A DNA stretch of 64,000 nucleotides, taken from contig CANMPD010000004.1 of the NCBI GenBank assembly GCA_947499635.1, positions 1-64,000 of the forward strand, written 5' to 3'. A program made the position numbers and the translations under genes. The notes under the pieces were generated by a model. The model was not told the DNA's origin. It worked only from the letters and a program-made list of their open reading frames with translations, and did not search any database. Positions 1,101 to 63,405 of this stretch are shown in pieces (the first letter of the stretch is position 1; each line of letters opens with the position of its first letter). Source of the stretch: an uncultured Paracoccaceae bacterium (GTDB lineage Bacteria; Pseudomonadota; Alphaproteobacteria; Rhodobacterales; Rhodobacteraceae).

Positions 1101-1225
1101 GTGGCAGAGTGCTTAGGGTTCCGTGGATATCAGAATTGATATTCAGTCTGGTCCGAGAAGCGCTACCAGTGCGGCAAAATCCGCAAGGGCACACGGCGGG
1201 GCAAAATCCCGGGAGGTTACTGCGC
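1101..1225 (+). promoter_or_regulatory. guanidine-I (ykkC) riboswitch aptamer
   Basis: The conserved blocks of the ykkC/guanidine-I aptamer appear in order. TTAGGGTTCCG is at about 1113-1123, a P2-like hairpin with GATATCA/TGATATT arms at about 1126-1143, and TGGTCCGAGA at about 1149-1158. ACGGCGGGGCAAAATCCCGGGAGG follows at about 1193-1216. GCAG (1104-1107) and CTGC (1220-1223) can close the P1 stem. The family binds guanidinium and switches on guanidine export or degradation genes. Here it precedes an importer and a guanidine hydrolase-like gene on the same strand, which fits. The exact ends are estimated from P1 pairing. Confidence 0.93.
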
Positions 1226-1251
1226 AGGTTTAATCCGCGCTCTAATTCCAT

Positions 1252-1297
1252 GTTCCGCCAGCGCACCCAAACCGTTTTAAAAAAAAATAGGCGGAAC
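1252..1297 (+). promoter_or_regulatory. candidate expression platform of the guanidine riboswitch
   Basis: Between aptamer and start codon there is an inverted repeat, GTTCCGCC (1252-1259) and GGCGGAAC (1290-1297), enclosing an A-rich loop of about 30 bases. The ribosome site GGGG (about 1304-1307) lies just beyond, before the ATG at 1315. A second possible arm pair, GCGCAGG (about 1223-1229) and CCAGCGC (about 1258-1264), overlaps the left arm and could compete with it. There is no U-run after a stem, so translational control or a Rho-dependent mechanism seems likelier than intrinsic termination. This is inference from pairing by eye. Confidence 0.4.
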
Positions 1298-1314
1298 GGA
1301 CAACGGGGAATACA

Positions 1315-2382
1315 ATGACGATTTTAAAATTCTTATCCTCCGCCGCCGTTTGCGCAGCACTTGCCACATCCATTGCGATGCCAGCCAATGCACAAGAGAA
1401 AGACGAATTTAGACTGGCTTGGTCGATCTATGTTGGGTGGATGCCTTGGGGCTATCTCGACGAAAGCGGCATCATGGACAAGTGGGCTGATAAATACGGT
1501 ATCGACGTCGAGATTGTTCAAATCAATGACTACGTTGAATCCATCAACCAATACACCTCAGGTGCATTCGATGGCGTTTCCGCGACCAATATGGATACGC
1601 TTTCTATCCCCTCTGGTGGTGGCGTGGACACAACAGCCCTGATCATTGGCGATTATTCCAATGGAAATGATGCGGTCATTCTGAAGGGCGAAGGGTCCTT
1701 GGCCGATCTGGTGGACAAGCCTGTGAACTTGGTCGAACTGTCGGTTTCACATTATTTGCTGGCGCGTGGGCTGGACACTGTTGGTCTGTCCGAAGCCGAC
1801 CTTGGTGGAGTGGTCAACACCTCAGATGCCGATATGATCGCGGCCTATGCCACTGATGATGTGCAAGCCGTTGTGACGTGGAATCCGCTGGTGTCGGAAA
1901 TCACTGCTAGTAACCCAGATGCCAATGTGCTGTTCGACAGCTCTAAGGTTGCGGGTGAAATTCTGGACCTAATGGTGGTGAATACACAGACGCTTGAGGA
2001 CAATCCAAATTTTGGCAAGGCCGTAGTCGGCGCTTGGTACGAAGTTATGGCCTTGATGGCATCGGGTGACGAAGAGGTTCTCACAGCGATGGCCGAGGCC
2101 TCAGGTACGGATCTTGCAGGATACAAAGCACAGTTGGCGGCGACGGAAATGTTTTTTGAGCCAAGCCAAGCGGTTGCTCAGGCCGCGTCAAAAGATTTGC
2201 CAGCAACCATGACAAACATCGCGGAGTTCCTGTTTGATAAGGGTATTTTGGGCGTTGGTGCCCCAAGCGCAGATTTTGTCGGGGTGGAATACCCAGACGG
2301 CGTGATCACCGGTGACGAGAACAATGTCACGCTGCGCTTTGATACGACCTTCATGCAGATGGCAGCTGACGGCGCGTTGTAA
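1315..2382 (+). CDS. ABC transporter periplasmic binding protein, guanidine/urea-carboxylase-region type
   Basis: This 355-residue protein has a Sec signal peptide (basic start, hydrophobic core, ending near PANA-QEKD, residue about 27). The mature part is of the NitT/TauT/SsuA-like class, and the start of the mature protein (FRLAWSIYVGWMPWGYL) fits the subgroup found beside urea carboxylase and guanidine genes (the TIGR03427 type, from memory). It should capture the substrate in the periplasm and deliver it to the permease at 2458. As the first gene after a guanidine-I riboswitch, guanidine or a close relative is the inferred ligand. The ATG at 1315 follows GGGGAA at normal spacing. Confidence 0.85.
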   Translation: MTILKFLSSAAVCAALATSIAMPANAQEKDEFRLAWSIYVGWMPWGYLDESGIMDKWADKYGIDVEIVQINDYVESINQYTSGAFDGVSATNMDTLSIPSGGGVDTTALIIGDYSNGNDAVILKGEGSLADLVDKPVNLVELSVSHYLLARGLDTVGLSEADLGGVVNTSDADMIAAYATDDVQAVVTWNPLVSEITASNPDANVLFDSSKVAGEILDLMVVNTQTLEDNPNFGKAVVGAWYEVMALMASGDEEVLTAMAEASGTDLAGYKAQLAATEMFFEPSQAVAQAASKDLPATMTNIAEFLFDKGILGVGAPSADFVGVEYPDGVITGDENNVTLRFDTTFMQMAADGAL

Positions 2383-2393
2383 TCAAACTTTTC

Positions 2394-2417
2394 TGGCGCG
2401 CCTTTCTGGGTGCGCCA
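2394..2417 (+). promoter_or_regulatory. intercistronic hairpin after the binding-protein gene
   Basis: The arms TGGCGC (2394-2399) and GCGCCA (2412-2417) flank a 12-base loop and are followed by ATTTATTTTG. Placed just after the binding-protein stop, it could protect the upstream mRNA or partly attenuate the permease and ATPase genes, giving excess binding protein. Such hairpins are common in ABC operons; the function here is inference. Confidence 0.45.
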
Positions 2418-2457
2418 TTTATTTTGCCATCAAAACCCGCCCGCTAGGAGGAGTCTT

Positions 2458-3270
2458 ATGAGACTGATTAATCATGTCCCCTCAAGGCCAAATAGTGTTT
2501 TTCTCGCTGCCTTGCCGTTTGTTCTGGTGCTTATTGTATATTCGATTGCGTCGGATTTGCGGCTAACGGAAAACCCACAAGATAAGCTGCTCCCAGCGCT
2601 CAGCACAATCTGGGAGACCGCGACCCGGTTGTTTACTGAACCTGACCGGCGTTCAGGCGATATTTTGCTGTGGCTTGACACTGGGGCGTCGTTGCGACGG
2701 CTGATGTTGGGCGTTGGGATTTCGGCAATTATTTCGCTGATCCTTGGGATGGCAATTGGGTTGCTTCCTTTTGCGCGGTCCGGATTTGCGAGTTTTGTTG
2801 CGGTTCTTTCAATGGTTCCACCGCTGGCACTGTTGCCTATCTTGTTCATTGTTTTTGGCCTTGGCGAAGTGTCGAAGGTTGTTTTGATTGTCATTGGGAT
2901 CACCCCATTCATGACACGTGACCTGTCGCAACGGGTTTTGGATATTCCGGCAGAGCAATTGATAAAGGCGCAAACGATTGGTGCGTCTTCGTGGGTTATT
3001 GCGTTGCGCGTTGCGCTGCCACAAATCTTGCCGCGATTGATTGCAAATATACGTCTGTCACTTGGGTCGGCTTGGTTGTTCCTGATCGCTGCCGAAGCCG
3101 TGGCCTCTGATGTTGGGCTTGGGTACCGGATTTTCTTGGTTCGGCGCTATTTGGCAATGGATGTCATCCTGACTTATGTCGTTTGGATCACCTTGCTGGC
3201 ATTTGTCGTGGATTGGGCGCTTAAAACCCTGTCGCGCAAAGCATTTCCATGGATGGAGGCCAGGCTATGA
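2458..3270 (+). CDS. ABC transporter permease, NitT/TauT (SsuC-like) type
   Basis: A 270-residue inner-membrane protein with about six hydrophobic segments and a BPD-transport (MetI-like) domain. The cytoplasmic coupling helix region for the ATPase is visible around the EQLIKAQTIGASSW stretch (the EAA loop). It forms the channel of the importer with the binding protein at 1315 and the ATPase at 3267. The ATG at 2458 is preferred over an upstream in-frame start because AGGAGG lies directly before it. Its stop overlaps the next start by four bases (ATGA), which implies translational coupling. Confidence 0.85.
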   Translation: MRLINHVPSRPNSVFLAALPFVLVLIVYSIASDLRLTENPQDKLLPALSTIWETATRLFTEPDRRSGDILLWLDTGASLRRLMLGVGISAIISLILGMAIGLLPFARSGFASFVAVLSMVPPLALLPILFIVFGLGEVSKVVLIVIGITPFMTRDLSQRVLDIPAEQLIKAQTIGASSWVIALRVALPQILPRLIANIRLSLGSAWLFLIAAEAVASDVGLGYRIFLVRRYLAMDVILTYVVWITLLAFVVDWALKTLSRKAFPWMEARL

Positions 3271-4034
3271 GTTTTGTAACTGTGCGGAATGTTTGGCAGG
3301 CCTATGGAAACCGTTCAATCATTGAGCGTGTAAATCTTGATGTCGACGAAGGTGAATTTGTATCTATCGTCGGCGCGTCCGGGTGCGGAAAATCTACATT
3401 CTTGCGATTGCTTTTGGCGCAAGAACGACCAACCCGAGGGTCAATTTGCATTGATGGAGGCGCGCCGGCGGTTGAGCCAAACCTTGAACGCGGCGTTGTG
3501 TTTCAAAAATATTCGGTCTTTCCTCATCTATCGGTCCGCGAAAACCTTATTGCCGGCGAAGGGTTTAAAACCCGGTCAGGCTATTTGTTTGGCAAGGCAC
3601 GACGCGCAGCTATCGAACGTGCCGATGAGATGTTGCAACGTATCGGTTTGAACCATGTCGCAGACCAGTACCCGGCGTCGTTGTCTGGCGGAATGCAGCA
3701 ACGACTTGCTATTGGGCAAGCCATGGCGGCCAAGCCGCGGGTTCTGTTGTTGGACGAGCCATTTGGCGCGCTGGATCCGGGCACACGTTTGCAAATGCAC
3801 GATTTCCTTATGGAATTGCGTGATGAAACAAACATGACTGTGTTCATGGTGACCCATGATCTCGACGAAGGGTTTAAGCTGGGCGAACGGGTGTTGGTCT
3901 TTGATAAACCCCGCTGGGATCCACATGACCCCGGCGCCTATGGTGCCACGATTACCTACGATTTTGATGCGCGAAATGGCGGGATACCGTTCCAAAATAT
4001 TCTGGAGAAATATCCCAAGCTTGCCGTCGCATAA
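3267..4034 (+). CDS. ABC transporter ATP-binding protein, NitT/TauT type
   Basis: A 255-residue ATPase with Walker A GASGCGKST, signature LSGGMQQRL, Walker B VLLLDEPFGALD and the switch histidine in MVTHDLDE. All residues needed for ATP hydrolysis are present. It powers the importer formed with the two preceding genes. The start at 3267 follows GGAGG and overlaps the permease stop. The C-terminal 30 or so residues (after VFDKPRWDP) are the divergent tail usual for this transporter class. Substrate is inferred from the riboswitch and the downstream hydrolase. Confidence 0.87.
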   Translation: MSFVTVRNVWQAYGNRSIIERVNLDVDEGEFVSIVGASGCGKSTFLRLLLAQERPTRGSICIDGGAPAVEPNLERGVVFQKYSVFPHLSVRENLIAGEGFKTRSGYLFGKARRAAIERADEMLQRIGLNHVADQYPASLSGGMQQRLAIGQAMAAKPRVLLLDEPFGALDPGTRLQMHDFLMELRDETNMTVFMVTHDLDEGFKLGERVLVFDKPRWDPHDPGAYGATITYDFDARNGGIPFQNILEKYPKLAVA

Positions 4035-4094
4035 GGTTCACTGCGCGCGCTGCTGGGCTCCGCACGCAGGCTGTCATCAAGGCCCAGAAAAGAC

Positions 4095-4110
4095 GCCCTC
4101 GCGAGAGGGC
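4095..4110 (+). other. short GNRA-loop hairpin ahead of the hydrolase gene
   Basis: GCCCTC and GAGGGC form a perfect six-base stem closed by the stable tetraloop GCGA, about 17 bases before the hydrolase ATG. There is no following T-run, so it is not a terminator. It may be an mRNA processing or stability element. It does not match the ACGR-loop pairs of guanidine-II riboswitches. Confidence 0.4.
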
Positions 4111-4127
4111 ACCACCACAGGACAAAA

Positions 4128-5402
4128 ATGATGTTCTCAGATCTAAACAAAAGGCGTTCCCATCATCCTCGTGATTTGGCCGAGCGTCTTAACGCCACAC
4201 AGGCGCGCCATCACCATCCTGACCTCAGCAAACTTGCCGGTTGGCAAGCGATGCAAAAAGAAGGGGATCTCCCAACCGGTCGTCACGACGAAGAACGCCG
4301 TTGGGCATTGCGTATGGGACTGACAGGGGCGGATGCGATTGAAGACAAATCCATCCCCACTTTTGCCCGTGGTGAACTGCCGCATTTTGCCGGTATTAAC
4401 ACGTTCCTTAAAGCGCCTTACGCCGAGGATGTTTTAGACGTTGCCAATTATGATGCGACGGTTCTGGGCATCCCCTTTGATGGCGGTACAACTTACCGCC
4501 CGGGTACGCGGTTTGGACCTCAGGGTTTGCGCAAGATTTCTGCGCTTTATACGCCTTATAACTATGAACTTGGTGTGGATCTGCGCGAGCAGATGACCCT
4601 GTGTGATGCGGGTGATGTGTTCACAATCCCAGCCAACATCGAAAAATCATTTGACCAAATCAGTCGCGGCGTCAGCCATGTGTTTAGCTCTGGGTCATTG
4701 CCAATCATGATTGGTGGCGACCATTCGATCGGGTTCCCATGTGTACGCGGCATTGCCGAATGCACGTCCAAGAAAATCGGGATCGTTCACTTTGATCGCC
4801 ATGCTGACATTCAGGAAAAAGATCTGGATGAACGGATGCACACCACGCCGTGGTTCCATTCTACAAACCTGCCGAATGTACCGGCTACAAACCTTGTGCA
4901 AATTGGTATTGGCGGTTGGCAAGTCCCGCGCGAGGCCGTCAAAGTGGCGCGCGAACGGAACACCAATATCATTACCATGGGCGACATGGAGCGAATGGGC
5001 ATCGACAAGACCATTGAAATGGCGCTCGAGATGGCTTGGAAAGATGTGGACATGGTGTATCTGTCGTTTGATATCGACAGCATCGACTGTGGTTTTGTGC
5101 CGGGTACAGGCTGGCCTGAGCCAGGTGGGTTCTTGCCACGCGAAGCCCTCGCGCTGGTTTCCGGAATTGCTGCTGAAGGCATCTGTGGCATGGAATTGGT
5201 CGAAGTCTCCCCGCCCTACGATACATCTGATATCACAGCCCTTATGGGCACCCGTGTGATCGTGGATGTTTTGGGTACCTTGGTTGCGAATAATAAACTT
5301 GGTGCACATAAGCGGCATATCGATAAACCAGTATCCCATCCATATGGCGAATACGAAGGCAAACGTTGGTCAAATCCTGAGCCACACAAGGTGGGTGAAT
5401 AA
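4128..5402 (+). CDS. gdmH: guanidine hydrolase-like ureohydrolase (GdmH type)
   Basis: This 424-residue member of the arginase/agmatinase superfamily is longer than ordinary agmatinases (about 300) because of an N-terminal extension of about 100 residues. Metal-site motifs are GGDHS (196-200), DRHAD (223-227) and DIDSID (315-320). The usual DAHxD is DRHAD here, and it is followed by IQEKDLDERMHTTPWFH, which from memory resembles the nickel-dependent guanidine hydrolase of Synechocystis (Sll1077). That enzyme yields urea and ammonia. The riboswitch-controlled importer upstream and His-rich metal protein downstream support guanidine as substrate over agmatine or guanidinobutyrate. Either of two adjacent ATGs (4128, 4131) may start it; AGGA precedes both. 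Confidence 0.82.
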   Translation: MMFSDLNKRRSHHPRDLAERLNATQARHHHPDLSKLAGWQAMQKEGDLPTGRHDEERRWALRMGLTGADAIEDKSIPTFARGELPHFAGINTFLKAPYAEDVLDVANYDATVLGIPFDGGTTYRPGTRFGPQGLRKISALYTPYNYELGVDLREQMTLCDAGDVFTIPANIEKSFDQISRGVSHVFSSGSLPIMIGGDHSIGFPCVRGIAECTSKKIGIVHFDRHADIQEKDLDERMHTTPWFHSTNLPNVPATNLVQIGIGGWQVPREAVKVARERNTNIITMGDMERMGIDKTIEMALEMAWKDVDMVYLSFDIDSIDCGFVPGTGWPEPGGFLPREALALVSGIAAEGICGMELVEVSPPYDTSDITALMGTRVIVDVLGTLVANNKLGAHKRHIDKPVSHPYGEYEGKRWSNPEPHKVGE

Positions 5403-5860
5403 TGCCCCACGATCATTCACATGACCACCACGATCATGACCATGATCATGTCCATCACCACGTAGGACATAATCACAGTCATGGCGACCATTTGCATTCG
5501 CATCTACATGACGAAGATGAGGCAGCCGACCTGCAAGTCTTGGCCACGCAGTTTATCGATGGGTTTGTGCAGGCCAATGATAAATCCAGTTACCTAAAAT
5601 TGGCGGGCGTGCCGTTTGAACGCCCGTCCGCAGCAGGTGCCAAAGCGTTAAAATTGATAGACGTAGAGTTGAAGACCGAATGGCAGGTGGGGACGGCGTC
5701 TCCATCATTTGGATCGCGAGAACTCTCGTATTTGCCGTTCCCTGGGGAAATGGTGAAGGCACGTACGAATATGTCTCTTGTCTATGTTTCAATGGACGAA
5801 AAAGCGACGCTCGACATCCGAGATTTTTTACTCAAGAAAAAGAAAGAACTCAGCATATGA
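5402..5860 (+). CDS. His-rich putative nickel-binding accessory protein (152 aa)
   Basis: The first 36 residues contain 18 histidines interspersed with Asp and Ser. An acidic linker (DEDEAAD) and a domain of about 110 residues that I do not recognise follow. There is no signal peptide, so it is probably cytoplasmic. The start overlaps the hydrolase stop by one base (TAATG), so it is translated together with the hydrolase. Known guanidine hydrolases need HypA/HypB-like nickel chaperones, and a metal-storage or delivery role is the obvious inference. It lacks the CxxC zinc motif of HypA and the P-loop GTPase motifs of HypB, so it is not a plain homologue of either. Confidence 0.7.
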   Translation: MPHDHSHDHHDHDHDHVHHHVGHNHSHGDHLHSHLHDEDEAADLQVLATQFIDGFVQANDKSSYLKLAGVPFERPSAAGAKALKLIDVELKTEWQVGTASPSFGSRELSYLPFPGEMVKARTNMSLVYVSMDEKATLDIRDFLLKKKKELSI

Positions 5861-6015
5861 CTAAAGGTCTAATTCGGGCAGTGAGCCTAATAGCCGCATC
5901 TCCAGCGATTGCACATGAGGGTGGAAACCATATTCATCCCCATGGGTTTGAAGCTGCAATTTCGCTTGGCGTTATCGTCGTCGTTGCACTGGTTTGGCGG
6001 ATAAGTTCGCGCTGA
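5857..6015 (+). CDS. small signal-peptide/His/one-TM protein, DUF6732-like
   Basis: A 52-residue protein that begins with a signal-like segment ending at SPAIA. It then has HEGGNHIHPHG (four His in eleven residues) and a C-terminal hydrophobic segment (AAISLGVIVVVALVW) closing with a short basic tail. Similar small proteins occur, from memory, in Rhodobacteraceae urease operons. A role in periplasmic nickel binding or uptake is therefore plausible but unproven. Its ATG overlaps the stop of the His-rich gene (ATGA), which is strong evidence for a real, coupled gene despite its size. It is the last gene of the guanidine operon. Confidence 0.62.
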   Translation: MTKGLIRAVSLIAASPAIAHEGGNHIHPHGFEAAISLGVIVVVALVWRISSR

Positions 6016-6050: not shown

Positions 6051-6083
6051 CTATTGGACCAATGGACTGAAGTGGTCCAATAG
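6051..6083 (+). terminator. terminator hairpin of the guanidine operon
   Basis: The arms CTATTGGACCA (6051-6061) and TGGTCCAATAG (6073-6083) make an 11-bp perfect stem with an 11-base loop, 35 bases after the last stop codon. The U-run is weak (CACTTTGATT), so termination may be partial. The rest of 6084-6290 holds no gene. Confidence 0.6.
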
Positions 6084-6348: not shown

Positions 6349-7311
6349 ATGACCCAGTACCTGGATTTCGAAAAGCCGCTTGCTGAAATTGAAGGCAAGG
6401 CAGAAGAATTGCGCGCTGTTGCGCGTGCGAACGAAGAAATGGATATCGCCGATGAGGCCGCGGCTTTGGATGCAAAAGCGGCCCAATTGTTGGTGGATAT
6501 ATATGCGAATTTGACACCTTGGCGTAAATGCCAGGTTGCGCGTCACCCCAATAGACCGCATTGCCGTGACTATATTGACGAGCTGTTTACAGAATATACG
6601 CCGCTTGCTGGGGATCGCAATTTTGCAGATGACCTTGCGGTTATGGGTGGCTTGGCACGTTTTAATGACCAACCTGTTGTGGTGATAGGTCACGAAAAAG
6701 GGCATGATACCAAGTCTCGGATCGACCATAACTTTGGTATGGCCCGTCCGGAAGGGTACCGTAAGGCGATCCGTTTGATGGAAATGGCAGGTCGTTTTGG
6801 TTTGCCTGTGATTACTTTGGTCGACACTGCAGGTGCTTATCCTGGAAAAGGCGCTGAAGAGCGAGGTCAATCCGAAGCAATCGCGCGCTCAACTGAGATG
6901 TGTTTGAAAATCGGTGTCCCTTTGATTTCTGTGATCATTGGCGAAGGTGGTTCTGGTGGGGCCGTTGCATTTGCGACAGCTAACCGGGTCGCGATGTTAG
7001 AGCATTCGGTGTATTCGGTCATTTCACCTGAGGGCTGTGCGTCCATTTTGTGGAAAGACTCTGAAAAGATGCGCGAAGCCGCAGAAGCCTTGCGTTTGAC
7101 GGCGCAAGATTTGATTCAGCTTGGCGTGGCTGACCGGGTGATTTCTGAACCTTTGGGTGGCGCGCATCGTGATATTCCTGCGACCTATTTAAGCGTGAAA
7201 AATGCGATTTCGTCGATGCTGGAAGAGCTCTCTAAGCAAGATAGTGCAGCGTTGATTAAAGACCGACGTCAGAAGTTTTTGGATCTTGGCTCTAAGGGGC
7301 TGGCGAATTAA
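6349..7311 (+). CDS. accA: acetyl-CoA carboxylase carboxyltransferase subunit alpha
   Basis: This 320-residue subunit, with AccD, moves the carboxyl group from biotin to acetyl-CoA to make malonyl-CoA, the first step of fatty-acid synthesis. The length and the N-terminal start ([17 protein letters not shown]) are typical of AccA. The crotonase-like core is seen in [17 protein letters not shown] and [10 protein letters not shown], which hold the active-site glycines. It stands alone between a sigma70-like promoter and a strong terminator. accD is not in the window, as usual for the dispersed acc genes of proteobacteria. Confidence 0.96.
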
Positions 7312-7542: not shown

Positions 7543-8574
7543 ATGCGAATGAGTGAGAAGAAAATTAAAAATATGGAAGAGTTTGCCGCTGTCAGCGGTA
7601 TTTCTCGACCGACGGTTTCTAAGTACTTCAACGATCCCGATAGCGTGCGCTTGTCGACACGCAAAAAGATCGAAGCGGCCTTGGAGCGATATGAATATCG
7701 CCCGAATATTTTTGCGGTCAATCAGAACCGAAAGTTAACGAAAACGATTGGTATCGTCGTTCCTTATCTCGCCGATCCGTTTTTTGGAGAGCTGGCCCGA
7801 AATCTGGAATTCTATTGCGTGGAGGCGGGATTTCGACCGCGTCTCTTTAGCTCGCAAGGTCAGCAAGATCTCGAAAACGAAGCTTTGAGCAGCTTGCAGG
7901 CGTTAAAACCTGCGGGAGTTTTACTGGCGCCGCTTGGGCGTAAATCTGATATCTCTGCGATCGAGAAGTTCTGCCAAAATGTCCCTACCGTCCTGTTTGA
8001 TAGCAACCTCCCCGACGTTCGGCAGGCTTATATCGGGTCTAACAACAGTCAGTTTGCAGATTTAATCGTTGAGTATTTATGTGAAACAGGTGAGCCGCCT
8101 TGTTTCTTTGAGATGAAAACACCGGCAAATCCAAATGCAAATCGCCGTCGGCAAGGCTACGTGCAAGCTATGGAGCGTTTGGGACACGAGCCTTGTATTG
8201 TGCAAGCCGAGGGCGAAGGCTGGGATTTTGAAGAGATTAGCCGCCGCGAAGGTGCAAGAGCGTTGCAGGCGAAACAGTTTAAGACGTCGACAGTTTTATG
8301 TTCAAATGACCGTATGGCCATAGGCCTTTTGACGGCATGTTATGAGTTGAACCTGGGGGCTGGACGGGGGGTAAATGATGATATTCGAATTGCGGGACAG
8401 GATAATCATCCGTTTTCACGCTATACTTGCCCACCTTTAACGACCGTCTCTCAGGATTATGAGGCAATATCAAAAAATGCAGTGAATCTCTTGCTGTATG
8501 CGATCAATGGCGGGGCATATCGTCAAGAGAGTCAGCTTTACGATGGCAAGCTTATTATACGTCAGTCTGCATGA
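7543..8574 (+). CDS. LacI-family transcriptional regulator
   Basis: A 343-residue regulator. The N-terminal helix-turn-helix (about residues 11-33, FAAVSGISRPTVSKYFNDP) and hinge helix (KIEAALERYEYRPN) are classic LacI features. A periplasmic-binding-protein-like effector domain follows (TIGIVVPYLADPFFGELA through the C-terminus). It lies just upstream of, and in line with, the polyol transporter operon, so it is the likely repressor of smoEFGK-mtlK with a polyol or derived sugar as inducer. The start is uncertain: ATGs at 7543 and 7549 both lack a good ribosome site, and a third at 7573 would still leave the HTH whole. Confidence 0.85.
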   Translation: MRMSEKKIKNMEEFAAVSGISRPTVSKYFNDPDSVRLSTRKKIEAALERYEYRPNIFAVNQNRKLTKTIGIVVPYLADPFFGELARNLEFYCVEAGFRPRLFSSQGQQDLENEALSSLQALKPAGVLLAPLGRKSDISAIEKFCQNVPTVLFDSNLPDVRQAYIGSNNSQFADLIVEYLCETGEPPCFFEMKTPANPNANRRRQGYVQAMERLGHEPCIVQAEGEGWDFEEISRREGARALQAKQFKTSTVLCSNDRMAIGLLTACYELNLGAGRGVNDDIRIAGQDNHPFSRYTCPPLTTVSQDYEAISKNAVNLLLYAINGGAYRQESQLYDGKLIIRQSA

Positions 8575-8583
8575 CGTGAAAAT

Positions 8584-8633
8584 TTTGCGCGCGTAAAGTT
8601 TTAAATTGACTCGCAATTTTGAACGATTATGAT
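8584..8633 (+). promoter_or_regulatory. promoter and candidate operators of the polyol operon
   Basis: TTGACT (8606-8611) and TATGAT (8628-8633) lie 16 bases apart, a good sigma70-type promoter. AAATTG (8603-8608) and CAATTT (8614-8619) form an inverted repeat over the -35 box. A CG-centred near-palindrome, TTTGCGCGCGTAAA (8584-8597), sits just upstream and resembles the layout of LacI-family sites. Either could bind the regulator encoded at 7543. Confidence 0.5.
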
Positions 8634-8669
8634 CTAACGTCACTACATCCAATTACAGGGAGGAGTCGG

Positions 8670-9971
8670 ATGTCTATGAATAACGCACTTCGTGCGGCTA
8701 CTGCGCTAACGCTGATTGCAGCGGGCGGCGCGTACGCTGATACAATTACTATCGCGACAGTGAACAACGGCGATATGGTCCGTATGCAGGGCCTGACAGA
8801 AGACTTCACAAAAAAGACAGGTCACACTGTTGAGTGGGTCACGCTGGAAGAAAATGTTCTGCGCCAACGTGTTACAACTGATATCTCCACGAATGGTGGT
8901 CAGTTCGACATTATGACAATCGGTATGTACGAGACACCGATTTGGGCGCAAAATGGTTGGCTGGTCGAGCTAGATGACCTTCCAGAAAGCTATGACGTAG
9001 ATGACATTCTGCCCGCGATGCGCGGTGGTCTGAGCTATGATAACACGCTTTATGCTGCGCCGTTTTATGGCGAAAGCTCAATGATCATGTATCGCACAGA
9101 TCTGATGGAAAAAGCAGGTCTTGAAATGCCTGAATCTCCATCTTGGGATTTCATTGTCGATGCAGCGAACAAGATGACCGACAAAGAGAACGAAATCTAC
9201 GGTATCTGTTTGCGCGGTAAAGCAGGCTGGGGTGAGAACATGGCGTTCTTGACAGCCACATCTAACGCTTTTGGTGCACGCTGGTTTGATGAAAATTGGC
9301 AAGCTCAGTTTGATACTGAAGAGTGGGCGAACACGCTGAACTTCTATGTTGACCTGATGACAGAAGCGGGCCCTCCCGGTGCGTCAAATAACGGCTTCAA
9401 CGAGAACCTGTCTTTGTTCCAACAAGGCAAGTGTGGCATGTGGATTGACGCAACTGTTGCGGCATCTTTTGTGACCAACCCTGACGATTCAACCGTTGCA
9501 GATAAAGTTGGCTTTGCACTGGCACCAAACACTGGTCTCGGTAAAAACTCTAACTGGTTGTGGGCATGGGCGTTGGCGATCCCAGCGGGCACCGACAATG
9601 AAGATGCAGCAAAGCAGTTCATTGAATGGGCGACATCCAAAGAGTACATCGAATTGGTTGCCGAGAACGAAGGCTGGGCGAACGTACCTCCGGGTGCGCG
9701 TAAGTCACTGTATGAAAATGAAAACTACCAAGCAGTTCCATTTTCTGACATGACACTCAAGTCTATCTTGTCAGCTGATCCGCTAAACCCAACCGTAGAG
9801 TCAGTGCCATATGTTGGCGTTCAGTTCGTTGCTATTCCAGAATTCGCGGGTTTCGCGACCGAAGTTGGTCAAGAATTCTCTGCAGCTTTGGCAGGACAAC
9901 AAACTGTTGAAGAAGCGCTTGAAAAAGCACAAGCTTTGACTACGGATGCAATGGAAGCCGCAGGCTACTAA
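8670..9971 (+). CDS. smoE: sorbitol/mannitol ABC transporter substrate-binding protein
   Basis: A 433-residue family 1 (MalE-like) solute-binding protein with a cleavable signal peptide ending near GGAYA-DTITI. Order and size match SmoE of the Rhodobacter polyol transporter: it is followed by two permeases, a MalK-type ATPase and mannitol dehydrogenase. It binds polyols in the periplasm for the SmoFGK importer. The ATG at 8670 is chosen because AGGGAGGAG lies directly upstream; a frame extension to 8619 would start inside the promoter region. A strong hairpin follows the gene. Confidence 0.87.
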   Translation: MSMNNALRAATALTLIAAGGAYADTITIATVNNGDMVRMQGLTEDFTKKTGHTVEWVTLEENVLRQRVTTDISTNGGQFDIMTIGMYETPIWAQNGWLVELDDLPESYDVDDILPAMRGGLSYDNTLYAAPFYGESSMIMYRTDLMEKAGLEMPESPSWDFIVDAANKMTDKENEIYGICLRGKAGWGENMAFLTATSNAFGARWFDENWQAQFDTEEWANTLNFYVDLMTEAGPPGASNNGFNENLSLFQQGKCGMWIDATVAASFVTNPDDSTVADKVGFALAPNTGLGKNSNWLWAWALAIPAGTDNEDAAKQFIEWATSKEYIELVAENEGWANVPPGARKSLYENENYQAVPFSDMTLKSILSADPLNPTVESVPYVGVQFVAIPEFAGFATEVGQEFSAALAGQQTVEEALEKAQALTTDAMEAAGY

Positions 9972-9989
9972 TACGTACCGTTAAGTCTA

Positions 9990-10017
9990 TTCAAGGGCGG
10001 CAATTGTCGCCCTTGAA
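9990..10017 (+). promoter_or_regulatory. strong intercistronic hairpin between smoE and smoF
   Basis: TTCAAGGGCG (9990-9999) and CGCCCTTGAA (10008-10017) make a perfect 10-bp stem with an 8-base loop and no U-run after it. It probably stabilises the binding-protein mRNA or reduces read-through into the permease genes. Confidence 0.6.
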
Positions 10018-10099
10018 TGGTTAAAGTACCTAAAATGTTCACTAAAACTTAGATAGATCTTGTGCGGCCTTTGCGGCTGCAATCAGGGGAGATCCGCTT

Positions 10100-10966
10100 A
10101 TGGCGACCCAGCACTCACGTTCAGCCGCGCGTATGATGATGGCACCTGCCGTCGTTCTGCTGCTCGGCTGGATGCTCGTACCGCTTATTATGACGCTTTA
10201 TTTTTCTTTCAAGAAGTATTTACCACTGCGTGGTGGGGACCTTGGATGGATCGGCTTTGACAACTATGTTCGATTTGTCAGCTCAAGCGCCTTTTGGCCA
10301 AGTGTCTCAGCAACGTTGATTATCGTCGGTGGTGTTTTGACGATCACCGTCGTTCTGGGTGTCCTTTTGGCGCTGATGTTGGACCAACCTATTTGGGGCC
10401 AAGGGATCGTGCGTATTCTTGTGATCGCACCGTTCTTTGTTATGCCGACTGTATCGGCCCTCGTTTGGAAAAACATGTTCATGGATCCGGTGAATGGCTT
10501 GTTCGCACATCTATGGAAGTTTTTCGGCGCTGAACCTATCGCTTGGCTGACCGAAGTTCCTTTGTCGTCCATTGTGATGATTGTAAGCTGGCAATGGCTT
10601 CCCTTTGCAACCTTGATCCTTCTTACGGCGATCCAATCTTTGGATAGTGAACAAATCGAAGCTGCTGAGATGGATGGCGCGCCAATCATTAAGCGCTTTT
10701 GGTTTATCGTTCTGCCCCATTTAGGGCGTGCAATCACTGTTGTTGTGTTGATCCAAACGATCTTTTTGCTTTCGGTTTTTGCCGAAATCTTTGTGACAAC
10801 CCAAGGTGCATTTGGAACGAAGACTTTGTCTTACCTGATCTATCAGCGTGTTCTTGAAAGTCAGAACGTCGGTCTTGGGTCTGCAGGTGGTGTCTATGCA
10901 ATCATTCTTGCCAATATCGTTGCCATCTTCTTGATGCGCATGGTCGGCAAAAACCTAGACGCGTGA
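10100..10966 (+). CDS. smoF: sorbitol/mannitol ABC transporter permease 1
   Basis: A 288-residue MalF/UgpA-type permease with six hydrophobic segments. The coupling (EAA) motif is around EQIEAAEMDGAPIIKRFWFI, residues about 184-203. It pairs with SmoG to form the membrane channel for polyol uptake. An AGGGGAGA ribosome site precedes the ATG. A spacing of 128 bases from smoE, containing the hairpin, contrasts with the tight 10-15 base spacing downstream, which suggests separate tuning of binding-protein level. Confidence 0.87.
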   Translation: MATQHSRSAARMMMAPAVVLLLGWMLVPLIMTLYFSFKKYLPLRGGDLGWIGFDNYVRFVSSSAFWPSVSATLIIVGGVLTITVVLGVLLALMLDQPIWGQGIVRILVIAPFFVMPTVSALVWKNMFMDPVNGLFAHLWKFFGAEPIAWLTEVPLSSIVMIVSWQWLPFATLILLTAIQSLDSEQIEAAEMDGAPIIKRFWFIVLPHLGRAITVVVLIQTIFLLSVFAEIFVTTQGAFGTKTLSYLIYQRVLESQNVGLGSAGGVYAIILANIVAIFLMRMVGKNLDA

Positions 10967-10979
10967 GGGAGCATCTATA

Positions 10980-11810
10980 ATGGCACGTCAAGTGACCTCA
11001 AAACGCAAAGCGTTAAACACGGTTCTAGCTTGGGGAATAGGTCTGTTGATCTTTTTCCCCATCCTCTGGACCATTCTGACCAGTTTTAAAACTGAAGCTC
11101 AGGCGATTAACGACCCGCCGATATTCCTGTTCTTTGACTGGACGTTGGAGAACTATCAGGTTGTACAGGAACGCTCTAACTATGGACGTTTCTTGTGGAA
11201 CTCTGTGATTATTGCCGGTGGTTCGACATTGTTGGGGACTGCGATTGCGATCCCTGCGGCGTGGTCGATGGCTTTTGTTCCGTCTAAACGAACCAAAGAT
11301 ATCCTGCTCTGGATGCTGTCGACGAAAATGTTGCCAGCGGTCGGCGTACTTTATCCAATTTACCTGCTGTTTATTCGCATGGGAATTTTGGACACACGCG
11401 TCGGCTTGGTCGTGGTGATTATGCTGATCAACCTGCCGATCATTATCTGGATGTTGTATACGTACTTTAAGGAAATCCCGGGTGAGATCCTTGAGGCTGC
11501 GCGTATGGACGGAGCCAGCTTGAAGGAAGAGGTGCTTTATGTACTGACGCCGATGGCTGTTCCTGGGATCGCATCCACTATTCTTCTGAATATCATTCTG
11601 GCTTGGAACGAGGCGTTTTGGACGTTGAATTTGACCGCAGCAAAAGCGGCCCCTTTGACGTCGTTTATCGCGAGCTACTCCAGTCCTGAGGGACTGTTCT
11701 ACGCGAAGCTGTCTGCCGCATCGACAATGGCGATTGCTCCGATCTTGATCCTCGGCTGGTTCAGCCAGAAACAACTTGTGCGCGGCCTGACATTCGGCGC
11801 TGTGAAGTAA
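10980..11810 (+). CDS. smoG: sorbitol/mannitol ABC transporter permease 2
   Basis: A 276-residue MalG-type permease. The EAA coupling motif is around EILEAARMDGASLKEEVLYV, and six membrane segments are visible from LAWGIGLLIFFPILWTIL onward. It is the partner of SmoF. It begins 13 bases after the smoF stop with GAGGGAG as ribosome site and ends 9 bases before smoK, so it is clearly the middle of one operon. Confidence 0.87.
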   Translation: MARQVTSKRKALNTVLAWGIGLLIFFPILWTILTSFKTEAQAINDPPIFLFFDWTLENYQVVQERSNYGRFLWNSVIIAGGSTLLGTAIAIPAAWSMAFVPSKRTKDILLWMLSTKMLPAVGVLYPIYLLFIRMGILDTRVGLVVVIMLINLPIIIWMLYTYFKEIPGEILEAARMDGASLKEEVLYVLTPMAVPGIASTILLNIILAWNEAFWTLNLTAAKAAPLTSFIASYSSPEGLFYAKLSAASTMAIAPILILGWFSQKQLVRGLTFGAVK

Positions 11811-11819
11811 GGAAAGACT

Positions 11820-12824
11820 ATGGGACGTATTACACTTGAAAAGGTGACCAAGAGCTTTGGCAACGTTGAGGTCATCCCGCCGTTGGATTTGACCATCGAA
11901 GAAGGCGAGTTTACCGTATTTGTTGGCCCATCTGGCTGCGGTAAATCTACCCTTTTGCGTTTGATTGCTGGACTGGAAGACGTGAGTTCAGGTGCGATTA
12001 GCATCGATGATCAAAATGCGACTGAGCTGCCGCCAGCAAAACGCGGTCTGGCGATGGTTTTCCAATCCTATGCGCTCTACCCGCATATGAGTGTGCGCAA
12101 AAATATCGCCTTCCCTCTTAAGATGATTAAGATGGATCAGGCCGAAATTGATCGTCGCGTTGAAGGCGCTGCATCGGTTTTGAACCTGACAGACTATCTG
12201 GATCGTCGTCCAGGGCAGCTGTCTGGCGGTCAACGTCAGCGTGTTGCTATTGGACGTGCGATTGTTCGTGAACCATCGGCGTTCTTGTTTGATGAACCTT
12301 TGTCAAACTTGGATGCAGCGTTGCGTGTGGGTATGCGTTTGGAAATCTCCGAACTGCATGAGCGCTTGAAAACCACGATGATCTACGTGACGCACGACCA
12401 GGTCGAAGCCATGACTATGGCGGATAAGATTGTTGTTCTGCGCGCGGGCCATATCGAACAGGTTGGCAGCCCATTGGAACTCTATCACCGCCCACGCAAT
12501 AAGTTTGTTGCGGGCTTTATCGGGTCACCGACAATGAACCTGATCGAAGGGGCTGAGGCTGCTAAATATGGTGCAGCCACTATCGGTATTCGTCCTGAAC
12601 ACATCGATATCAGCGAGACCGAAACAAAGTGGAAGGGCGTTGTTGGGGTTTCTGAGCATTTGGGCTCTGACACTTTCTTGCACGTCCATGAAACAGGTCT
12701 CACTGAGATGATGACAGTGCGTGTGACAGGGGATGTGAACCTGAAACATGGCGATACAGTACATCTGAGCCCACGCGAAGATCTAATCCACAAATTCGAT
12801 GCTCAAGGTTTGCGTGTCGACTAA
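11820..12824 (+). CDS. smoK: sorbitol/mannitol ABC transporter ATP-binding protein
   Basis: A 334-residue MalK/UgpC-type ATPase. Walker A is GPSGCGKST, the signature LSGGQRQRV, Walker [12 protein letters not shown] and the switch region [16 protein letters not shown]-terminal TOBE/MalK-type regulatory domain begins after about residue 235 ([20 protein letters not shown]). It energises SmoFG. A CG-rich hairpin separates it from mtlK. Confidence 0.9.
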
Positions 12825-63324: not shown

Positions 63325-63377
63325 TCAACGGCTCCCGCGCATATCCGGGTTATGATATGCAACCTCCCTGTTGGACT

Positions 63378-63405
63378 TGCCGGGCCTTGTGCCCGGCATT
63401 TTTTA
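63378..63405 (+). terminator. terminator after the response regulator gene
   Basis: TGCCGGGC (63378-63385) and GCCCGGCA (63391-63398) with a 5-base loop, followed by TTTTTTATTT. Confidence 0.88.

Follow-up and report, generated by a model that had tools for sequence, protein, structure and literature searches.

The window analyzed here is a stretch of 64,000 nucleotides (contig CANMPD010000004.1, positions 1 to 64,000) from the 3.6 Mb genome of an uncultured Paracoccaceae bacterium (GCA_947499635.1), and it contains near its left end a putative operon for the uptake and hydrolysis of guanidine. All of the parts listed in a preliminary description of the window were present on the plus strand of positions 1102 to 6015: a guanidine-I (ykkC) riboswitch aptamer, followed by genes for the binding protein, permease and ATPase of an ATP-binding cassette (ABC) transporter, for a ureohydrolase resembling the guanidine hydrolase GdmH, for a protein with 18 histidines, here called HisP, and for a protein of 52 residues with histidines and a putative membrane segment (Table 1). 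The genes had been described as overlapping by 1 to 4 bases from the permease onwards, which holds for the permease and ATPase genes (4 bases), the GdmH and HisP genes (1 base), and the HisP and small protein genes (4 bases), but the ATPase and GdmH genes are separated by 93 bases (4035 to 4127) that contain a conserved RNA pseudoknot. The hairpin reported at the end of the operon likewise stood only in part: an 11-bp inverted repeat exists (arms 6051 to 6061 and 6073 to 6083), but it has no T run behind it, the terminator scan made no call there, and its fold is only slightly better than those of shuffled sequences (z -1.1). A terminator-like hairpin with a T-rich tail was also noted between the binding protein and permease genes (2394 to 2417), and it could leave the binding protein in excess over the permease.

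Table 1. Positions of the features of the putative guanidine operon in the window.
Feature	Position	Strand	Basis
Guanidine-I (ykkC) riboswitch aptamer	1102..1217	+	Rfam RF00442, 71.6 bits, cut-off 63, E 9.5e-11
ABC transporter substrate-binding protein, probably for guanidine	1315..2382	+	TIGR03427, 508 bits against a cut-off of 333.9; neighbors
ABC transporter permease	2458..3270	+	PF00528, 67.3 bits
ABC transporter ATPase	3267..4034	+	PF00005, 116.7 bits
H-type RNA pseudoknot, gdmH leader	4038..4090	+	Covariation, 38 sequences; model R2, 58.4 bits
Second leader hairpin, 5' of the ribosome-binding stretch	4095..4110	+	Stems of at least 5 bp in 33 of 38 relatives
GdmH, predicted guanidine hydrolase (nickel ureohydrolase family)	4128..5402	+	PDB matches, residues, tree
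HisP, presumed nickel-loading partner of GdmH, with His-rich tail and conserved core (about 95 residues)	5402..5860	+	
Small, putatively envelope-anchored His protein, 52 residues	5857..6015	+	Signal-peptide-like start, His, one hydrophobic stretch (by eye)
11-bp inverted repeat 3' of the last gene, possible 3' end	6051..6083	+	Fold

For comparison, a collection of species genomes was scanned with the HisP alignment, which identified 186 loci, and the best 80 of these were kept. A wider set of 19 loci included 14 from other alphaproteobacterial families and 4 from actinobacteria, and 2 genome sets, consisting of 248 Rhodobacteraceae genomes and a class-wide sample of 385 genomes, were scanned for gdmH and HisP. 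Matches to GdmH, the permease and the ATPase, some of them partial, were obtained in all 80 kept loci, and the gene for the binding protein was at its usual place in 79; the recurrence of this order in relatives is more than expected by chance. The binding protein gene was missing from that place in L095 (uncultured Pelagimonas), in which the riboswitch (6664 to 6789) directly precedes the permease gene and the best binding protein match is located on the other strand at the edge of the locus.

The preliminary description had also proposed that the aptamer belongs to the ykkC family, and its score against the covariance model exceeded the gathering score. A model built from 26 aptamers of our own set gave exactly one match per source in the window, in all 80 kept loci and in 4 loci from other alphaproteobacterial families, for a total of 85 sources, which include the 26 used to build it. 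In the wider set it matched 13 of the 19 loci, L173 weakly (36 bits), and gave no match in L175, L176, L178 and 3 of the 4 actinobacterial loci; the contig of L176 starts just 5' of the binding protein gene. With regard to the expression platform, the stretches 3' of the aptamer folded no better than shuffled sequences. It was also noted that the actinobacterial gdmH in L181, located on a plasmid of Rubrobacter indicoceani, is closely preceded by a guanidine-I-like element (63 bits) and has genes for a sodium:solute symporter and for urease beside it, and that this locus lacks HisP.

The best matches in the PDB to the protein encoded at 4128 to 5402 were 7esr/7oi1 and 9fek, with 533 and 527 bits, followed by a guanidinobutyrase with 175 bits. 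The former are the guanidinases of Synechocystis and Nitrospira inopinata, as named in PMC11410670. In a phylogeny of 26 sequences, some outgroup members of which had very long branches, the window hydrolase and both solved guanidinases belonged to a clade of 22 sequences with a support of 100/99; the guanidinobutyrase and 3 paralogs from the window's own genome were placed outside this clade. The nearest gdmH loci were those of uncultured Pseudoruegeria and Halocynthiibacter isolates. The specificity residues marked in N. inopinata, Thr 105, His 222, Trp 313 and Glu 344 (PMC11410670), correspond to T122, H238, W329 and E359 in the window protein, if a constant shift of 2 residues between the PDB chain and the numbering of the paper is taken. 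Across 100 aligned GdmH sequences, T, H and E were invariant and W was present in 99. The assignment of GdmH as a guanidine hydrolase is firm by sequence. Together with the aptamer score, the guanidinase clade and the Thr/His/Trp/Glu residues support the earlier suggestion that the switch would drive the import and hydrolysis of guanidine for nitrogen.

A match to the urease alpha subunit was identified in all 41 gdmH genomes and was above the cut-off in 40, the remaining genome containing only a piece of the gene at a contig end. In the window's genome, apparent genes for ureD, A, B, C, E, F and G are located in a row, as read from the translations by eye, and UreC and the UreG-like GTPase were additionally found by profile searches.

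The gene for HisP is a regular neighbor of gdmH. It was located directly downstream of gdmH in all 80 kept loci. In the Rhodobacteraceae set, gdmH was present in 36 genomes and HisP in 37, namely the same 36 and G159, which contained 2 short pieces; 35 of the 36 genomes had the 2 genes no more than about 0.6 kb apart on a single contig, and G098 contained both at contig ends. In the class-wide sample, gdmH was present in 11 genomes and HisP in 13, which were those 11 and G741 and G959, with remnants. HisP also followed gdmH in all 14 loci from other alphaproteobacterial families; since 4 of these were used to build the HisP profile, the count is 10 of 10 for the independent loci, and L171 and L179 are from one genus. 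The HisP copies seen without gdmH were fragments. The copy in G741 (L196, 7091 to 7357) was considered as a use of HisP beyond guanidine metabolism and rejected, as the core is truncated and contains a stop codon, which marks this copy as a remnant; it sits behind DUF3299, ABC and FtsX genes, and no gdmH match was obtained within the 15 kb fetched. In G959 (L197), a fragment of a TIGR03427-like binding protein is located close to the remnant of HisP, which looks like a loss of the central part of the operon. A linkage of HisP to the transporter rather than to GdmH was also rejected: TIGR03427 was above the cut-off in 2 of 44 gdmH-negative genomes, neither of which contained HisP. In the single annotated record that was checked, both small genes, for HisP and for the small protein, were named hypothetical.

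The HisP protein of the window consists of 152 residues, and its 18 histidines are all found within the first 40. Across the 80 loci the number of histidines ranged from 7 to 28, with a median of 18, and almost all of them were in the N-terminal tail; the motifs HLHSH and GHN were present in 76 and 61 loci, respectively. The tail is followed by a core of about 95 residues that is strongly conserved in the family, with identities of at least 60% across the rows of the family alignment and 25% to 34% to the distant group. HisP had no match in Pfam, in NCBIfam only its His tract matched a model for nickel/cobalt efflux (12.7 bits), and the best hits of the HisP profile to PDB sequences had expectation (E) values of 0.23 and 1.4. 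The AlphaFold model comprises 2 helices, a sheet of long strands and a further helix at the C-terminus, and has a mean predicted local distance difference test score of 73 to 79. Fold matches proposed by Foldseek in the PDB and a viral library were dismissed, as there was nothing at E 0.001 and the best values were 0.14 to 0.30, with COMM domains as the best in the PDB.

In published work, GdmH is a nickel enzyme that is aided by nickel-delivery proteins (PMC12186494, PMC11399263). Neither HypA (TIGR00100) nor HypB (TIGR00073) was identified among the operon proteins. In the window's genome, HypA had no match, and the best match to the HypB model, 68.1 bits against a cut-off of 121.2, was located in the urease cluster. 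Among 50 genomes with gdmH or HisP, HypA had no match of any kind in 36 and was below the cut-off or absent in 38, and HypB was above the cut-off in 13; where present, the genes for HypA and HypB were either on a different contig than gdmH or separated from it by no less than 250 kb (250 kb in G005). The preliminary description had suggested a different set of metal helpers, and the comparison supports this, given a genome with no HypA or HypB above the cut-off and a His-rich gene that regularly adjoins gdmH.

The slot after HisP is also suggestive of nickel. A gene for a HupE/UreJ permease, with a match to PF04955, directly follows HisP in 2 loci, L153 and L180 (Sinorhizobium fredii NGR234), and a heuristic search placed a gene like that of the small protein in this slot in 62 of the 80 kept loci. 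The small protein of the window had no match to PF04955 or to any other Pfam family; for DUF6732, with a cut-off of 27 bits, 5 relatives reached only 13 to 17 bits and the window protein had no match. In L175 (G717), a UreG-like gene (approximately 3349 to 3909) was observed about 3 kb upstream of gdmH.

The gap upstream of gdmH contains a hairpin, the loop of which pairs with a strand further on in the manner of an H-type pseudoknot, followed by a second hairpin and the ribosome-binding stretch, which lies outside the pseudoknot. The stem is formed by positions 4043 to 4049 with 4061 to 4067, including one C-A mismatch in the window copy, and the pseudoknot helix by 4054 to 4059 with 4081 to 4086. 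The structure of the pseudoknot is supported by covariation. In 38 distinct sequences, pairing was observed in 98.6% of the cells, compared with 86.4% in shuffled controls, which are inflated by relatedness, and at most 48.6% with slid partners, which keep the relatedness but favor a structure read from the same sequences. Changes on both sides were found in 9 of the 13 pairs (5 of 7 and 4 of 6 in the 2 helices) against 6.5 in the shuffles, and the covariation score was 0.489 against 0.230. Four of the 5 measures exceeded all 500 shuffles, and the fifth, the number of pair types (19), was unremarkable, being reached by 121 of them. The second hairpin had stems of at least 5 bp in 33 of the 38 relatives, compared with 36% of mononucleotide shuffles.

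The gap between the ATPase gene and gdmH occurred in 2 forms. The element was present in 40 of the 80 kept loci, in 36 of which the measured gap was 90 to 110 bases, the measurement in the other 4 being disturbed by the start or ATPase calls. Among the 40 loci without it, gdmH was located at most 12 bases from the ATPase stop codon, or overlapped it, in 36, and the gap exceeded 300 bases in 4. A covariance model of the leader, R2, scored at least 47 bits in the window and in 40 of the 80 kept loci, 38 of these 41 sources having been used to build it; the next match was 23.6 bits, and nothing above 19 bits was obtained in the 14 loci from other families. In a search of 149 genomes, which appear to include 20 of the 36 gdmH genomes, R2 gave, with stricter filters, 6 matches of at least 56 bits, all just before gdmH. 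The next match had 33 bits, and 67 of the 149 genomes had at least one match with an E value no higher than 0.1. The 8 next-best matches were set aside on the score gap; a test for open frames does not discriminate, because frames cross all 8 weak matches as well as both true copies shown.

Known small RNAs did not account for the leader. In Rfam, nothing was above chance for the window copy (best 11.5 bits, on the opposite strand) or near the cut-off for 5 relatives, and the only BLAST matches of the leader to plasmids were short and chance-like. The ykkC-III RNA is an H-type pseudoknot. So is the S-adenosylmethionine/S-adenosylhomocysteine (SAM/SAH) riboswitch (PMC7367207), and ykkC-III is found upstream of speB genes, the SAM/SAH class in Rhodobacterales (PMC2864571). 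The leader is like both in being a small, presumably regulatory RNA, but has no Rfam match to either. An identity with ykkC-III (guanidine-III) was rejected, as the perfectly conserved ACGA was found in none of the 38 cores and RF01763 had no match, and so was an identity with SAM/SAH, as RF01727 had no match and the element is located before gdmH rather than metK.

As to its function, we lean slightly towards the view that the leader is a constant element for mRNA stability or translation start, which would set a high ratio of GdmH to the transporter without sensing a ligand. In 36 of the 40 loci that lack it, direct coupling takes its place, and the ribosome-binding stretch is located outside the pseudoknot; both observations fit such a role, although the unpaired bases C39 and C57 to A60 (alignment columns), which are invariant or nearly so, exceed what a bare stabilizer needs. 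These loop bases, the compact covarying fold and the confinement of strong matches to positions before gdmH would be expected of a second riboswitch, for nickel, guanidine, urea or ammonium, that acts on gdmH and hisP only; this is nevertheless unlikely, as the leader matches no known ligand class and is absent from half of the kept loci. With its association to a single gene, the compact pseudoknot is well placed as a candidate for a cis-regulatory RNA of a new class.

We consider it likely that the window contains a guanidine-inducible operon for nitrogen scavenging in which HisP replaces HypA and HypB. Guanidinium would bind the guanidine-I aptamer and turn the transcript on, as published for the riboswitch family, and the ABC transporter would take up guanidine. 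Based on orthology and residues, GdmH would act as a nickel ureohydrolase that converts guanidine to urea and ammonium, and the urease encoded elsewhere in the genome would release two more ammonia from the urea. In place of HypA and HypB, the His tail of HisP would gather nickel and its core would dock on GdmH, to which the metal would be handed over. The small His peptide, presumably anchored in the envelope and encoded in the slot of the HupE/UreJ permease, might aid the entry of nickel, and the leader would provide gdmH with its own translation-start module, separate from the ATPase gene, either as a constant stabilizer or booster or as a second control point. In 93 of 95 alphaproteobacterial GdmH proteins the N-terminus contained HHPD, HHPN or HHPE, one of the 2 exceptions having a doubtful start; this segment (4128 to 4240 in the window) might be where HisP docks or delivers the metal.

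The best reading of HisP is that of a guanidinase-specific nickel-loading partner, a role that we infer from its neighbors and composition. Several observations weigh against it. No HisP was found in the stretches fetched for the 4 actinobacterial gdmH loci, and Nitrospira is reported to lack a nickel chaperone (PMC11410670), and HisP is therefore not needed everywhere. No His or Cys is conserved in the core, and of the loci that retain the core, L174 and L176 have a short His tail and L177 almost none; metal binding by the tail can thus not be the whole function of HisP. The predicted template modeling score of the core was 0.57 to 0.66, with a poorly predicted middle part. UreE, UreF and UreG are encoded in the window's genome and could load GdmH. 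No HupE/UreJ gene was seen by eye after HisP in the other 12 of the 14 loci from other families, and the heuristic search did not find the small protein in 18 of the 80 kept loci. Finally, the transporter control was weak, with no more than those 2 of the 44 genomes above the cut-off and a weaker TIGR03427 match in 19 of the 44.

The conserved core without metal ligands, the tail that ranges from 28 histidines to almost none, the ureE, F and G genes, and the case of Nitrospira would all suit a HisP that acts through its core as an obligate partner in the assembly or activation of GdmH, with the tail as an optional nickel store and with the nickel coming from UreE and UreG or a general pool rather than being inserted by HisP. 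We regard this as possible, if on the unlikely side, as most members have retained a His tail (7 to 28 histidines across all 80 loci), a nickel permease gene follows HisP in 2 lineages, and related enzymes have HypA and HypB as their helpers. It is improbable that HisP is a protective or storing buffer for nickel, zinc or cobalt that makes no contact with GdmH: its composition resembles that of known nickel stores and the small His protein adjoins it, but a buffer needs neither a core of 95 residues with at least 60% identity nor an exclusive tie to gdmH. That the enzyme acts on a substituted guanidine, such as methylguanidine or agmatine, is highly unlikely, in spite of an automatic annotation as agmatinase family and matches to agmatinase models below their cut-offs, in view of its clade and residues and the guanidine-I switch in front.

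A bolder combination can be formulated, which we find improbable: the guanidine-I switch would open the operon, the leader would be an unrecognized riboswitch class that responds to nickel, or to guanidine or urea, and gates the translation of gdmH and hisP, and HisP would represent a family of nickel insertases with a new fold that is dedicated to guanidinases.

Elsewhere in the window, a recombinase-like reading frame on the minus strand runs off the left edge (1 to 330, by eye), and a gene for a LacI-type regulator is followed by a sugar-type ABC transporter set (7543 to 12824, names by eye). A SorX-like small RNA, of the kind that takes part in the singlet-oxygen response, was identified at 63332 to 63404 (RF02784, 87.5 bits against 46.6).

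No paper that combines guanidine, Rhodobacteraceae and riboswitches was found in the open-access collection searched, and among the papers listed there none described HisP or the leader in its title or the start of its abstract, subscription papers, preprints and supplements being outside the scope of the search; a term search of 3 RNA-motif papers found no mention of agmatinase. The operon lists of Nelson 2017 and Wang 2021 (Supplementary Data 3) may include roseobacter operons. In Synechocystis and in marine picocyanobacteria, a guanidine-I switch that controls the import and hydrolysis of guanidine has already been described (PMC12186494, PMC10119275), and the scheme is therefore not new. 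The sll1077 (gdmH) operon of Synechocystis and the picocyanobacterial speB2 cluster are like the window operon in their guanidine-I switch, nickel guanidinase, ABC transporter and urease (PMC12186494, PMC8390497, PMC10119275), but the cyanobacteria have hypA and hypB for nickel loading, whereas the window has HisP and the small His/membrane protein, and its gdmH a pseudoknot leader of its own. The operons for metformin and dimethylguanidine hydrolases similarly encode nickel ureohydrolases together with helpers of their own and have hupE downstream (PMC11399263), but the helpers are HypA and HypB, and the enzymes are heteromeric and have other substrates. HisP is like UreE, HypB and Hpn in having a His-rich stretch that is expected to bind nickel, but it matches none of their families in Pfam or NCBIfam.

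The N. inopinata locus shares the guanidine-I switch, the urease and a GdmH ortholog (63% identity over 356 aligned residues) with the window. It differs by an APC permease in place of the ABC transporter and in that its authors found no nickel chaperone, and the same paper states that the nickel source of a guanidinase without HypA and HypB is unclear for Nitrospira (PMC11410670). The general design of guanidinase operons is thus known, and the parts that look new are the helper gene of no known family and the structured leader RNA. With one small protein following gdmH in the sampled alphaproteobacteria, the nickel question becomes testable for this group.

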